Below are positions 42,508 through 50,315 of a stretch of DNA of 63,780 nucleotides, in pieces (within the stretch, counting starts at the first letter, position 1; every line of letters starts with the position of its first letter). Under the pieces are notes generated by a model, which made no database searches, was not told the origin of the DNA, and worked only from the letters and a program-made list of their open reading frames with translations. Made by a program: the position numbers and the translations under genes. This DNA is from an uncultured Acidimicrobiaceae bacterium (GTDB lineage Bacteria > Actinomycetota > Acidimicrobiia > Acidimicrobiales > MedAcidi-G1), in assembly GCA_913030665.1 (NCBI GenBank), contig CAJWFS010000004.1, positions 1 to 63,780 on the forward strand. Direction: 5' to 3'.

Positions 42508-43980
42508 ATGGGTGAGATCGCCGACATCGATCCGCAGGAGGAGTGGAAGCTCCTGGTCGGAGGGGAGTGGACGTCCACGTCAGGTACCTACGAGGTCGTG
42601 GATCCAAACACCACCGCCGTGGTGGGTCATGCCCCCGATGGGTCGGTTGCGGATGCCGAGGCGACCGTCGCGGCGGCGAAGGCTGCCCTTCCGGGCTGGC
42701 GTGATACCCCGCCGGTCGAGCGTGGAGCACTGCTGGGCCGCCTCGCCGATGTGCTCCGTGAGCGGGCGCCCACATGGTCGGCGCTGGTACAGGCCGAAAC
42801 GGGCGCCACCATCAAGGTGGCCGAGACCATGCAGGTCGGACCGAACCTCGCCGACCGCTATGCCCAGTACTCCATCCCCCGCGACCTCGACCGGGCCGAG
42901 CTGCCGGTCGCCCAGGCCGCCTCGGCCCTGGGCCCCGCAGGCCTGGTGGGAGCGGTCTCGTATCGCCAGCCGGTCGGTGTCGTCGCCTGCATCACCTCTT
43001 ACAACTTTCCCCTTGTGAACGTGGCCGGCAAGCTGGCTCCGGCGCTGGCCATGGGAAACACCTGCATCATCAAGCCGGCTCCCCAGGATCCGCTGGGCGT
43101 TCTGCGACTGGGTGAGGCGGTGGTCGAGGCCGGCTTCCCACCCGGCGTCGTGAACATCCTGACGACCTCTGGCGTGGAGGCATCCGCTGCCCTGGTCGCC
43201 TCGCGGGACGTGAACATGGTCAGTTTCACGGGATCCTCGGCGGTGGGCAAGCGGATCATGGCCGACGGTGCGGCATCGATGACCCGGGTGCTGATGGAGC
43301 TGGGCGGCAAGGGCGCCATGGTCATGACCGAGGATGCCGACGTGAACGCAGCCGTCGGGGCGATCGCCAGCGTGTGGGGCTTCCACAGCGGACAGATCTG
43401 CACGGCACCCACCAGGGTGATCTGCCACCGCAGCATCTACGACCAGCTCGTGTCGACGCTGGAGTCGGTGGCCGGGATGCTCAAGGTCGGCGATGCCACC
43501 GAGCGAGACACCCTCGTCGGCCCGCTGGTATCGGAACTCCAACGCGACAGCGTGGAGGCGTTCATCCGCAACGGGGTGGACGGTGGCGCCACGCTGGTGT
43601 GCGGAGGCGATCGTCCGGACCTACCCGGCTACTTCGTGGCACCGACCCTGCTGGCCGACTGCACGTCCGACATGCACGTCGTGCGGGAGGAGGCGTTCGG
43701 ACCGGTGGTGGTGGTGTTGCCCCACGACGGCGACGACGAGGCTGTGGCCATCGCCAACGATTCCGCATACGGGCTCTACAGCTACGTGTATGCCGGCGAC
43801 ATGGCACGCGCCTATCGCATCGCCCGCCGCCTGGAGTCCGGCAACGTGGCCCTGAACAGCATCGTGCCCCACCCGAACGCTCCCTTCGGAGGGTTCAAGG
43901 AGTCTGGGATAGGCCGTGACCGTGGCATTGCCGGCCTTGAGGCCTACAGCGAGGTCCAGGCGATCTCCTGGATGGCCTGA
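42508..43980 (+). CDS. Aldehyde dehydrogenase
   Basis: A 490-residue NAD(P)-dependent aldehyde dehydrogenase. Signatures in order: NFPLVNVAGKLAPALAMGN for the cofactor site, FTGSSAVGKRI, the general base Glu in MELGGKGAMV, and the nucleophile Cys in HSGQICTAPTRV. Its aldehyde is unknown. The ATG at 42508 has GGGGAG about eight bases upstream. The leader of about 80 bases holds a CTGAC-N5-GTCAG operator, so the gene is probably induced by a substrate-derived ligand. Confidence 0.93.
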   Translation: MGEIADIDPQEEWKLLVGGEWTSTSGTYEVVDPNTTAVVGHAPDGSVADAEATVAAAKAALPGWRDTPPVERGALLGRLADVLRERAPTWSALVQAETGATIKVAETMQVGPNLADRYAQYSIPRDLDRAELPVAQAASALGPAGLVGAVSYRQPVGVVACITSYNFPLVNVAGKLAPALAMGNTCIIKPAPQDPLGVLRLGEAVVEAGFPPGVVNILTTSGVEASAALVASRDVNMVSFTGSSAVGKRIMADGAASMTRVLMELGGKGAMVMTEDADVNAAVGAIASVWGFHSGQICTAPTRVICHRSIYDQLVSTLESVAGMLKVGDATERDTLVGPLVSELQRDSVEAFIRNGVDGGATLVCGGDRPDLPGYFVAPTLLADCTSDMHVVREEAFGPVVVVLPHDGDDEAVAIANDSAYGLYSYVYAGDMARAYRIARRLESGNVALNSIVPHPNAPFGGFKESGIGRDRGIAGLEAYSEVQAISWMA

Positions 43981-44010
43981 CCCGGTCTCGGGCCGGACGG
44001 CCTGGGCGCT

Positions 44011-44016
44011 AGGTTC
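44011..44016 (+). promoter_or_regulatory. -10 box of the selenocysteine peroxiredoxin gene
   Basis: TAGGTT 35 bases before the ATG; with GGAGGAG between them this gene has a normal leader with a strong ribosome binding site, unlike most neighbours. Confidence 0.4.
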
Positions 44017-44051
44017 GGGCAGCGACACACCATGTGACCGGAGGAGACGGG

Positions 44052-44504
44052 ATGCTCGAAGTTGGAACCACGGCGCCGGGCTTCGCCGTGTCCGACCAGG
44101 ATGGTCAGGTCGTGACCCTGGAGAGCCTGCGTGGCCACTGGGTGGCTCTCTGGTGGTACCCGGTCGCATCCACCCCCGGTTGAACGCTTCAGGGTGGTGG
44201 GTTCCGTGACCGAGCCCCGGACTATGAATCAGCCGACGCGGTGATCGTCGGCGCCAGCTTCGATACCGTCGAGGCGCAGAAGAACTTCGCTGACGGGCAG
44301 GGTTTTCCATTCCGCCTGCTGGCCGACACCGACAAGGTGATGGGTACGGCCTACCTGGCCGTGCAGGCGGACAAGGGCTACCCGAGGCGCATCAGCTACC
44401 TGATCGACCCCGAGGGCACCATCGTCCGTACCTACGATCTGGCCGGTGAGGACCTCAACGGACACGCCTCGACCGTCCTGGAAGACATACGGGCCCTCTC
44501 CTGA
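44052..44504 (+). CDS. Peroxiredoxin with in-frame TGA at the peroxidatic Cys: candidate selenoprotein
   Basis: Reading from ATG 44052, after the strong ribosome binding site GGAGGAG, gives a complete 150-residue peroxiredoxin if the TGA at 44181-44183 (codon 44) is read as selenocysteine. The N-terminal half (VGTTAPGFAVSDQDGQVVTL and ALWWYPVASTPG) runs in the same frame into TLQGGGFRDRAPDYE and the normal C-terminal half (GFPFRLLADTDKVMGTAYL). In cysteine homologues this site is TPGCT; here Cys is replaced by TGA and nothing else is damaged. There is no other Cys, so the enzyme would need a partner thiol. The enzyme would reduce peroxides. Routine gene calling would miss the N-terminus or call it broken. 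The alternative is a recent nonsense mutation. Confidence 0.85.
44192..44217 (+). other. Candidate bacterial SECIS hairpin
   Basis: Within the coding RNA, GGG-TGGT (44192-44198) can pair with ACCG (44209-44212, one T-G wobble) and CCC (44215-44217), with a two-base bulge. The ten-base loop starts with G residues 16 bases after the TGA, inside the range known for bacterial SECIS elements. Folding was done by eye. Confidence 0.5.
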
Positions 44505-44529
44505 ACCTCCCGGTCGGTTGGAGGAGGTG

Positions 44530-45756
44530 GTGACCGCCCCACTGGAGGGCCTTTCGGTCGTGGAGGGCACGGCCTTCGTGGCAGCGCCGTCCGGCGGGAT
44601 GGCATTGGCCCAACTGGGCGCCGACGTCATCCGCTTCGACCAGGTGGGTGGAGGCCTGGACCACCACCGTTGGCCGTTGACCGCCGACGGCGTCAGCCTC
44701 TACTGGAACGGCCTCAACCGGGGCAAGCGCTCGCTGGCCGTGAACCTGCGGGATCCCGAGGTGACCGAACTGCTGTCCGAGCTGATTGCCAGGGCCGGCA
44801 ACTTCCTCACGAACTTCCCGGCGGTGGGGTGGATGTCATACGACGAGTTGCGGTCCCGTCGCGAGGACCTGGTGATGCTCGTCATCACGGGCTCGCACGA
44901 CGGCACCAGCGCGCTCGACTACACGATCAACTGCGCGGTCGGTTATCCGGCCATGACAGGCCACCCGGACGACCCGCGCCCGGTGAACAACGTCGTTCCT
45001 GCCTGGGACCTGGTCTGCGGGCAGATGGCGGCGCTCGGCCTGGTGGCCGCCGATCGGCACCGCTATCGGACCGGCGAGGGCCAGCAGGTCACCATTGCCC
45101 TTTCCGACGTGGCGCTGGCCACGGTGGGATCCCTGGGGAACCTGGCGGAGGCCCAGGTCAACGGCGAGGTCCGTGGTCGGGTCGGCAACGCCATCTACGG
45201 GGCCTTCGGGCGGGATTTCACGACGGCCGACGACCGGCGGGTGATGGTCGTGGCGATCACCCCGAAGCAGTGGCGGGGCCTGCTGGAGGTGACCGGAATG
45301 GGCAGCGAGGTGGCCGCCCTCGCCGACGAATTGGGTGTGGACTTCGCCGACGAGGGTGCGAGGTATGTGGCCACCGGACGGCTCTGCGACCTGTTCGATC
45401 CCTGGTTCGCGGCACGCACCCTCGCCGAGGTGGCCAACGGGCTGGACGCACACGGCGTGTGCTGGGGTCCGTACCGGACGGTCGCCGAACTGGTGGCCGA
45501 GGACCCCAGGTGCTCGACGGCCAACCCGCTGTTCGCCGAGCTGGACCAGCCGGGCGTGGGCACGCACCTAGTTCCCGGATCCCCGCTGGCCTTCGGTGGC
45601 TCCGCGGTTGCCGTCGGTGGCGTCGCCGACAGGGGTGCGCAGGTGGCACCGCTGCTGGGCCAACACAGCGTGGAGATCCTGACCGGCGATCTGGGCCTCA
45701 CCTCGGCCGAGGTGGGTGTGCTCATCGACCGGGGAGCAGTGGCGACCGCAGACTGA
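44530..45756 (+). CDS. CoA-transferase family III (CaiB/BaiF)
   Basis: A 408-residue family III CoA-transferase, which moves CoA between carboxylic acids. The N-terminal LEGLSVVEGTAFVAAPSGGM with LGADVIRFDQ, the WNGLNRGKRSLAVNL stretch and the catalytic Asp in ALDYTINCAVGYPAMTG are all present. Substrate unknown. The GTG at 44530 has GGAGG five bases upstream; a second GTG lies three bases earlier. It follows the peroxiredoxin gene by 25 bases, so the two may be co-transcribed. Confidence 0.88.
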   Translation: MTAPLEGLSVVEGTAFVAAPSGGMALAQLGADVIRFDQVGGGLDHHRWPLTADGVSLYWNGLNRGKRSLAVNLRDPEVTELLSELIARAGNFLTNFPAVGWMSYDELRSRREDLVMLVITGSHDGTSALDYTINCAVGYPAMTGHPDDPRPVNNVVPAWDLVCGQMAALGLVAADRHRYRTGEGQQVTIALSDVALATVGSLGNLAEAQVNGEVRGRVGNAIYGAFGRDFTTADDRRVMVVAITPKQWRGLLEVTGMGSEVAALADELGVDFADEGARYVATGRLCDLFDPWFAARTLAEVANGLDAHGVCWGPYRTVAELVAEDPRCSTANPLFAELDQPGVGTHLVPGSPLAFGGSAVAVGGVADRGAQVAPLLGQHSVEILTGDLGLTSAEVGVLIDRGAVATAD

Positions 45757-49046: not shown

Positions 49047-50315
49047 TCAGGGGAAGATTCCCCGCTGCTCGTACACGACCTGCAGGCGTCGGAGGGCCAC
49101 TGCGTAGGCGGCATCCCGGCGGGACGCGATCTCCAGCTCGGAACGGATGTCGACCACCTCGTCGCAGGCCTTCCACAGGATCTCCCGCAACTTGAAGTCC
49201 ACGTCTTCCAGGTCCCAGCGCTGTGCCGAACGGTTCTGCAACCACTCGAAGTACGAGACCACGACGCCACCGGCGTTCACCAGGATGTCTGGTAGCACGT
49301 CGATGCCGCGCTGTTCGAGGATCTTCTCCGCCTCCAGCGTCGTCGGACCGTTGGCTGCTTCGACCACGACCCGTGCCTGGATGCGTCCCACGTTCGCGGC
49401 GGTGACCTGGTTCTCCAGGGCGGCCGGCACGAGGATGTCGGCCGGCACCGACCAGAAGTCCTCGTCGTCGATCCACATGGCCTTCGGGAATCCGGCCACC
49501 GAGCCGTGTTCCCGGACCCAGTGGGCCAACTCGAAGGCGTCGATGCCGTCCTCATCCGTGATGGCCCCGGCGTGGTCGGCCACCGCCACGAGCCTGGCTC
49601 CGTGCACCTGCAGTATCCGTCCCGTTGCGCTGCCCACGTTGCCGAAGCCCTGGATGCTGACCGTGGCCCCGACCAGGTCGAAGCCGACCTCGTCGGCCCA
49701 GTGCTGGAGGCAGAACACGACCCCCTGTCCGGTGGCTTTCTCGCGGCCGGGGCTGCCTCCCGTCTCCAAGGTCTTGCCGGTGACGATCCGCTTCACGTTC
49801 TGGCGCTCCGTCGCCCCGGTGGAGTTGGCATACGTGTCCATCATCCAGACCATCGACTGGGCGTTGCTGCCCAGGTCGGGGGCGGGGATGTCGTGGTCGG
49901 GACCGATGTTGGTCCCCAGGGCGTGGGTGAACCGTCGGACCACCCGCTCCAACTCGTCGGCCTCGAGCGCTGTCGGGTCGAACGAGATGCCGCCCTTGGC
50001 ACCCCCGAACGGAATGTCGCAGAGGGCCGACTTCCATGTCATCCATGTGGCCAGGGCCTTGACCTCGTCCAGGTCCACCATCGGGTGGAACCTCACCCCG
50101 CCCTTGTACGGGCCCAGCAGGTTGCTGTGCTGGATCCGGTAGCCGCGGAACACCCGGTAGGACCCGTCGTTCATGAGGACCGGGAAGTTGACGATGATCT
50201 CGTTCTTGGGCTGCGAGAGGATCGACCTGAGGTCGCCGGGGAGGTCGATGATCTCGGCGCCACGGTTGAACTGGTCCAGGGCTGTGGCGAAGAGGCTGTT
50301 GCCGGTGTCGGTCAT
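49047..50315 (-). CDS. Glu/Leu/Phe/Val dehydrogenase (glutamate dehydrogenase type)
   Basis: A 422-residue amino-acid dehydrogenase, most like NAD-linked glutamate dehydrogenase, which interconverts glutamate and 2-oxoglutarate plus ammonia. Substrate-site lysines are in YKGGVRFHP and PFGGAKGGISFDP, the catalytic Asp in DIPAPDLGSNAQ, and the nucleotide fold in SIQGFGNVGSATG. ATG 50315 has GAGGGG upstream. A TAGCGT box (minus strand, 50370-50375) and the inverted repeat GGATC-N6-GATCC (50339-50354) lie in its leader. Leu or Val specificity is less likely given length but not excluded. Confidence 0.9.
   Translation of the reverse strand: MTDTGNSLFATALDQFNRGAEIIDLPGDLRSILSQPKNEIIVNFPVLMNDGSYRVFRGYRIQHSNLLGPYKGGVRFHPMVDLDEVKALATWMTWKSALCDIPFGGAKGGISFDPTALEADELERVVRRFTHALGTNIGPDHDIPAPDLGSNAQSMVWMMDTYANSTGATERQNVKRIVTGKTLETGGSPGREKATGQGVVFCLQHWADEVGFDLVGATVSIQGFGNVGSATGRILQVHGARLVAVADHAGAITDEDGIDAFELAHWVREHGSVAGFPKAMWIDDEDFWSVPADILVPAALENQVTAANVGRIQARVVVEAANGPTTLEAEKILEQRGIDVLPDILVNAGGVVVSYFEWLQNRSAQRWDLEDVDFKLREILWKACDEVVDIRSELEIASRRDAAYAVALRRLQVVYEQRGIFP

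Follow-up and report, generated by a model that had tools for sequence, protein, structure and literature searches.

In the window, by which we mean the whole stretch of 63,780 nucleotides analysed here, a peroxiredoxin reading frame is interrupted by a TGA codon at the position where homologous proteins carry their catalytic cysteine. This raises the question of whether the codon ends the protein or is read as selenocysteine (Sec). An earlier note on this DNA had proposed a Sec peroxiredoxin, and we found this reading to be favoured by the Sec machinery of the assembly, by the conservation of the TGA codon and by a SECIS-like hairpin downstream of it. The replacement of the catalytic Cys by Sec in some bacterial peroxiredoxins, to which the note referred, is already known (PMC2398784).

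Reading frame of the predicted Sec-peroxiredoxin

The following features were assigned to the gene:

44040 to 44046, forward strand: ribosome binding site GGAGGAG, 5 nt before the ATG, by direct reading
44052 to 44504, forward strand: predicted Sec-peroxiredoxin gene, 150 codons plus stop, with UGA codon 44 as Sec and UGA codon 151 as the stop
44181 to 44183, forward strand: TGA, predicted to encode Sec at the peroxidatic site of the PxxxTxxU motif (P37, T41 and U44), the same codon in 48/48 family genomes

Direct reading of the window agreed with the earlier note that a continuous frame without frameshift, preceded by a strong ribosome binding site, is broken only by this TGA. The frame extends from the ATG at 44052 to the terminal TGA at 44502-44504, and the interruption at codon 44 lies in the context STPG-U-T. 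The read-through protein comprises a full AhpC-TSA domain (PF00578, E 4.7e-29, covering profile positions 1-122 of 124), with a score of 101 bits where the cut-off is 26. Since the natural stop of the gene is also TGA, a detail that the earlier note left out, UGA would have two meanings within one mRNA. Standard annotation would split the gene or call it a pseudogene, and this applies to dozens of genomes.

Conservation of the TGA codon and phylogeny

As evident from the search of 81 genomes, the gene, with its TGA at codon 44, was present in 48/48 genomes of the same family and in 5/33 genomes that belong to other families of the order, which is far beyond chance, and no Cys form of the clade was found among them. 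The named relatives in the species collection were Acidimicrobiia/Acidimicrobiales assemblies. In a class-wide sample of 296 genomes, 22 matches were obtained at E 1e-30 or better, and 21 of these contained the internal TGA. The single exception (L118) had TCA, encoding serine, and its SECIS hairpin and loop motif were also gone (-2.3 kcal/mol); this protein is possibly a redox-dead homologue. A phylum-wide sample revealed seven further TGA genes, and the three weaker matches without TGA had TGC at the site and kept the resolving Cys at +5.

The alignment of homologues thus showed that the TGA at codon 44 is kept while the remainder of the protein is conserved, with no Cys codon in the clade. 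In particular, the 44-row alignment contained 34 invariant columns, which lay on both sides of the TGA, and T41-P-G-U44 and R113 were among the invariant residues. The scattered inactivating mutations in related strains that had been named as counter-evidence were not found; no other inactivating change was present in the gene across the 48 family genomes or the distant families.

In a quick tree of 89 rows, with support by SH-aLRT only, 75 TGA proteins and the one Ser protein formed a clade of 76 members apart from the Cys PrxQ proteins (SH-aLRT 99), and the branch leading to this clade was long, at 0.68 changes per column. Two further proteins (L083 and L085) had TGA at the peroxidatic site and kept the resolving Cys. 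As these were placed outside the clade, beside a Cys protein, more than one exchange between Sec and Cys has probably taken place in PrxQ.

Sec machinery in the assembly

The assembly that holds the window comprises 1.94 Mb in 177 contigs and is 88% complete. The search for selA, selB, selC and selD suggested in the earlier note revealed all four, so that the Sec machinery, whose absence would have spoken against the proposal, is present. The tRNA-Sec (67.5 bits) has a UCA anticodon, SelA has 446 aa, SelB (572 aa) contains the C-terminal SelB winged helix, and SelD (362 aa) carries a predicted Sec, encoded by TGA in the active site, in its GUGCK motif.

A strong tRNA-Sec (>60 bits) was found in 42/48 family genomes, including every one that is at least 90% complete; none of the remaining six exceeds 85% completeness. 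These counts and the following ones were made by eye on the result tables. All five genomes of the order outside the family that carry the TGA gene also have a strong tRNA-Sec, and the TGA gene of the clade is missing from each of the 13 genomes of the order in which no strong tRNA-Sec was found. Another 15 genomes of the order have a tRNA-Sec and no TGA gene of the clade, and there the tRNA-Sec presumably serves other selenoproteins.

A SECIS-like hairpin downstream of the TGA

The putative SECIS element was divided into the following components:

44199 to 44204, forward strand: 5' arm of the upper stem, GGGTTC; most relatives have one additional outer pair, which is absent from the window
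44205 to 44211, forward strand: apical loop CGUGACC, with the clade motif CGUGAY, 21 nt downstream of the UGA
44212 to 44217, forward strand: 3' arm of the upper stem, GAGCCC

In alignment A1 of the region downstream of the TGA, columns 18-24 paired with columns 32-38, and 96.9% of the cells were standard pairs; the pairing fell to 12-64% in slid registers. The covariation score was 0.336 compared with 0.228 +/- 0.013 in shuffled alignments, and 27 double changes were present in the stem compared with 8.8 in the shuffles, although these figures are not probabilities because the shuffles leave relatedness in place. None of the 500 shuffles was as high in pairing, covariation or double changes. 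Two of the five pair measures, which count the pair types and the pairs that show a double change, did not rise above the shuffles. The same helix was recovered unaided by RNAalifold.

The double changes span codons and alter amino acids (GGATTC/GAATCC versus GGGTTC/GAACCC versus GGGCTC/GAGCCC), with Leu51 mostly paired with Ala55 and Phe51 often paired with Thr55. Because the amino acids change together while the base pairs are kept, the comparative case that the hairpin makes for a bacterial SECIS within coding sequence is unusually clear. Additionally, codon 52 was CGT in 73/76 genes, whose other Arg codons are CGT in only 13% of cases, and codon 54 was CGA in 53/76 genes, compared with 8.5% of the other Arg codons. 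The GLRDQ group had a different stem (GGGCCTG/CAGGCCC) with a shorter loop and mostly retained the CGUGAY motif.

The bacterial SECIS model describes an apical loop of 3-9 nt with G in the first two loop positions, a stem of 4-16 bp, a distance of 16-37 nt from the UGA and a minimum free energy of <= -7.5 kcal/mol (PMC13188914). The window hairpin lies within these limits (loop of 7 nt with G second, followed by U; 21 nt; 6-7 bp; -8.0 kcal/mol), and fits the published model. When the window sequence is folded by itself, however, another structure is more stable (-12.2 kcal/mol) than the consensus hairpin (-8.0 kcal/mol), and the pairing probability of the hairpin is about 0.16. Since single-sequence folding of the hairpin was no better than for shuffles, comparative evidence was used. 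An Rfam scan of the window gave no matches.

Structural comparison with homologous proteins

The structure model of the read-through protein had a pLDDT of 97.3 and placed residue 44 in the first turn of the helix formed by residues 42-53. A fold search revealed the BCP/PrxQ proteins and the 1-Cys enzyme AhpE as the nearest structures. The fold and active-site frame are shared with the Cys form of PrxQ/BCP (PRK09437; PDB 3drn, 5iiz and 5epf), although the score against PRK09437 was 83.5 bits and the cut-off is 140. The resolving residue also differs; TPGCTxxxC in the Cys forms places a resolving Cys at +5, whereas the window protein has UTxxGxG, with Gly49 at this position. The resolving Cys was absent from 74/75 TGA members of the clade, and while some relatives have one Cys elsewhere in the protein, the window protein contains no Cys at all, a point not raised in the earlier note.

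Mycobacterium tuberculosis AhpE (PDB 1xxu and 5id2; TM-score 0.92-0.93) likewise has a single peroxidatic residue and no resolving Cys, which points to an external reductant. It differs in having Cys instead of Sec and shares about 30% identity with the window protein. Being without Cys, the window protein is predicted to act as a one-Sec peroxidase and to depend on reduction from outside.

The TxxU Sec peroxiredoxin (COG1225/PF00578) is an established selenoprotein family, known experimentally from Eubacterium acidaminophilum and among the abundant selenoproteins in marine metagenomes, with 253 GOS sequences (PMC2398784, PMC9312934, PMC13188914). The window gene belongs to this already described kind and shares with it a predicted UGA-encoded Sec at the peroxidatic TxxU position, the AhpC-TSA domain and the predicted downstream SECIS. 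It differs from it in having neither a resolving Cys nor any other Cys, and the Sec-only clade without the resolving Cys is possibly a distinct variant of the family. Against the NCBIfam model for PrxU (NF040737), the window protein scored 40.5 bits, below the cut-off of 270, and none of the NCBIfam models scored above its cut-off on this protein.

Symbiobacterium, formerly counted among the Actinobacteria, is now classified elsewhere. It was the richest organism in the 2006 survey in which Actinobacteria were named as rich in selenoprotein families (PMC1794560). With Sec in actinobacteria already known (PMC1794560, PMC2398784), the statement in the earlier note that selenoproteins are rarely reported for such organisms has to be tempered, while its reading of the gene as a Sec peroxiredoxin stands. 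For Acidimicrobiia, literature searches on selenoproteins yielded only a mention of SelA and SelB among bins of sponge symbionts that belong to various phyla (PMC5649159). The present analysis adds a Sec-only, mostly resolving-Cys-free clade that is fixed in one actinobacterial family, and it predicts four further selenoprotein genes in the assembly.

Alternative readings of the TGA codon

If the TGA were a real stop, as it is in translation table 11 and at the end of this very gene, the locus would be a pseudogene or encode a 43-residue peptide. This is highly unlikely, as the codon recurs without further damage throughout the family and in distant families, between conserved halves, in genomes that have the full Sec machinery, and the hairpin behind it is under constraint. 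A sequencing or assembly error at 44181-44183, which had also been named as counter-evidence, might be suspected in a fragmented assembly of this kind, yet independent assemblies from many projects share the codon. Its presence in 48 family genomes and five others of the order excludes such an error, which we regard as practically impossible. The frame would likewise stay open if UGA encoded an ordinary amino acid genome-wide, but UGA terminates the Sec-peroxiredoxin gene itself and many of its neighbours, and the internal UGA falls exactly at the catalytic Cys of the homologues in a genome with tRNA-Sec, SelA, SelB and SelD; a changed genetic code is extremely improbable here. These three explanations were rejected on conservation, on the independent genomes and on the UGA stops together with the Sec machinery, respectively.

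In some systems, Cys is known to be inserted at UGA. UGA44 might be read through with Cys inserted sometimes or even mainly, as in selenium-poor cells, and the enzyme would then be partly a Cys form. We consider this very unlikely, because no member of the sampled clade has a Cys codon in place of the TGA, and this suggests a need for Sec.

Proposed mechanism

The gene almost certainly encodes a PrxQ/BCP-type peroxiredoxin with a peroxidatic selenocysteine at position 44, which would be inserted via the Sec system and the SECIS and reduced externally. The analysis shows the gene, the Sec machinery, the conservation, the covariation of the hairpin and the predicted fold; from there on, the insertion of Sec, the peroxidase activity, the reductant and the weight of the enzyme in peroxide defence are inferred. 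Ser charged on the tRNA-Sec with the UCA anticodon would be converted to Sec by SelA, using selenophosphate from SelD. SelB would bind the hairpin just 3' of UGA44 and bring the Sec-tRNA-Sec to the ribosome, where UGA44 would be decoded as Sec and translation would run on to the UGA at codon 151. In the folded protein, the selenolate at the helix start, positioned by PxxxTxxU and the invariant Arg113, may attack the peroxide and yield a selenenic acid. Without Cys in the chain, the selenenic acid at Sec44 would be reduced from outside. Judged from the 1-Cys AhpE, the likeliest reductant would be a low-molecular thiol or a protein of the thioredoxin type.

Possible role in peroxide defence

The query found a single peroxiredoxin, the Sec one, in most family genomes; other families of the order mostly had 2-6. 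The assembly of the window contains four other AhpC-TSA proteins. No haem catalase was found in 30 family genomes (G000-G029), while it was present in 7/18 other genomes of the order, and a KatG-type peroxidase occurred in 2/19 family genomes, in one of the two in pieces. With no haem catalase in the 30 sampled family genomes, the Sec enzyme may be a main H2O2 scavenger, and much of the family's defence against H2O2 may depend on it. Sec would then be fixed family-wide at the catalytic site of what is possibly the chief peroxide-reducing enzyme, with the Cys fallback absent from the sample.

We propose tentatively, giving it somewhat less than even weight, that the main peroxidase of this lineage is obligately selenium-dependent, being a one-Sec enzyme of a PrxQ clade with neither a resolving Cys nor a sampled Cys orthologue, in genomes without haem catalase. 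If so, the selenium supply would limit the peroxide tolerance of these marine bacteria. Earlier surveys associated the use of Sec with anaerobes (PMC1794560). A peroxidase with obligate Sec, in a family represented mostly by marine assemblies, would therefore be useful for testing why organisms retain Sec.

The gene order aldehyde dehydrogenase, Sec-peroxiredoxin and CaiB-type CoA transferase (42508-45756 in the window) is usual in the family, as judged from gene names compared by eye and with flanks that were too short at some loci.

Other predicted selenoproteins

Four other genes of the assembly have an in-frame TGA in addition to the peroxiredoxin gene, which brings the predicted selenoprotein genes to at least five. 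The selD gene (L097:4800-5888, minus strand, contig C1) has an in-frame TGA in HGAGUGCK, which we take to be the usual Sec position of that enzyme, and SelD itself is thus a predicted selenoprotein. Two UGSC-family genes (L130 and L131, on contigs C20 and C13) each have TGA at the U of UGSC. A 345-codon TlpA/AhpC-like gene (L102:1186-2223), which is one of the four other AhpC-TSA proteins, contains an in-frame TGA in STWUGC and is perhaps near the WAxxUGC family. The UGSC, SelD and WAxxUGC selenoproteins share the genome and the Sec system with the window peroxiredoxin but belong to different protein families. In a scan of the window for TGA read-through genes, several candidates outscored the peroxiredoxin, such as one at 49047 on the minus strand, which lies between two separate genes.
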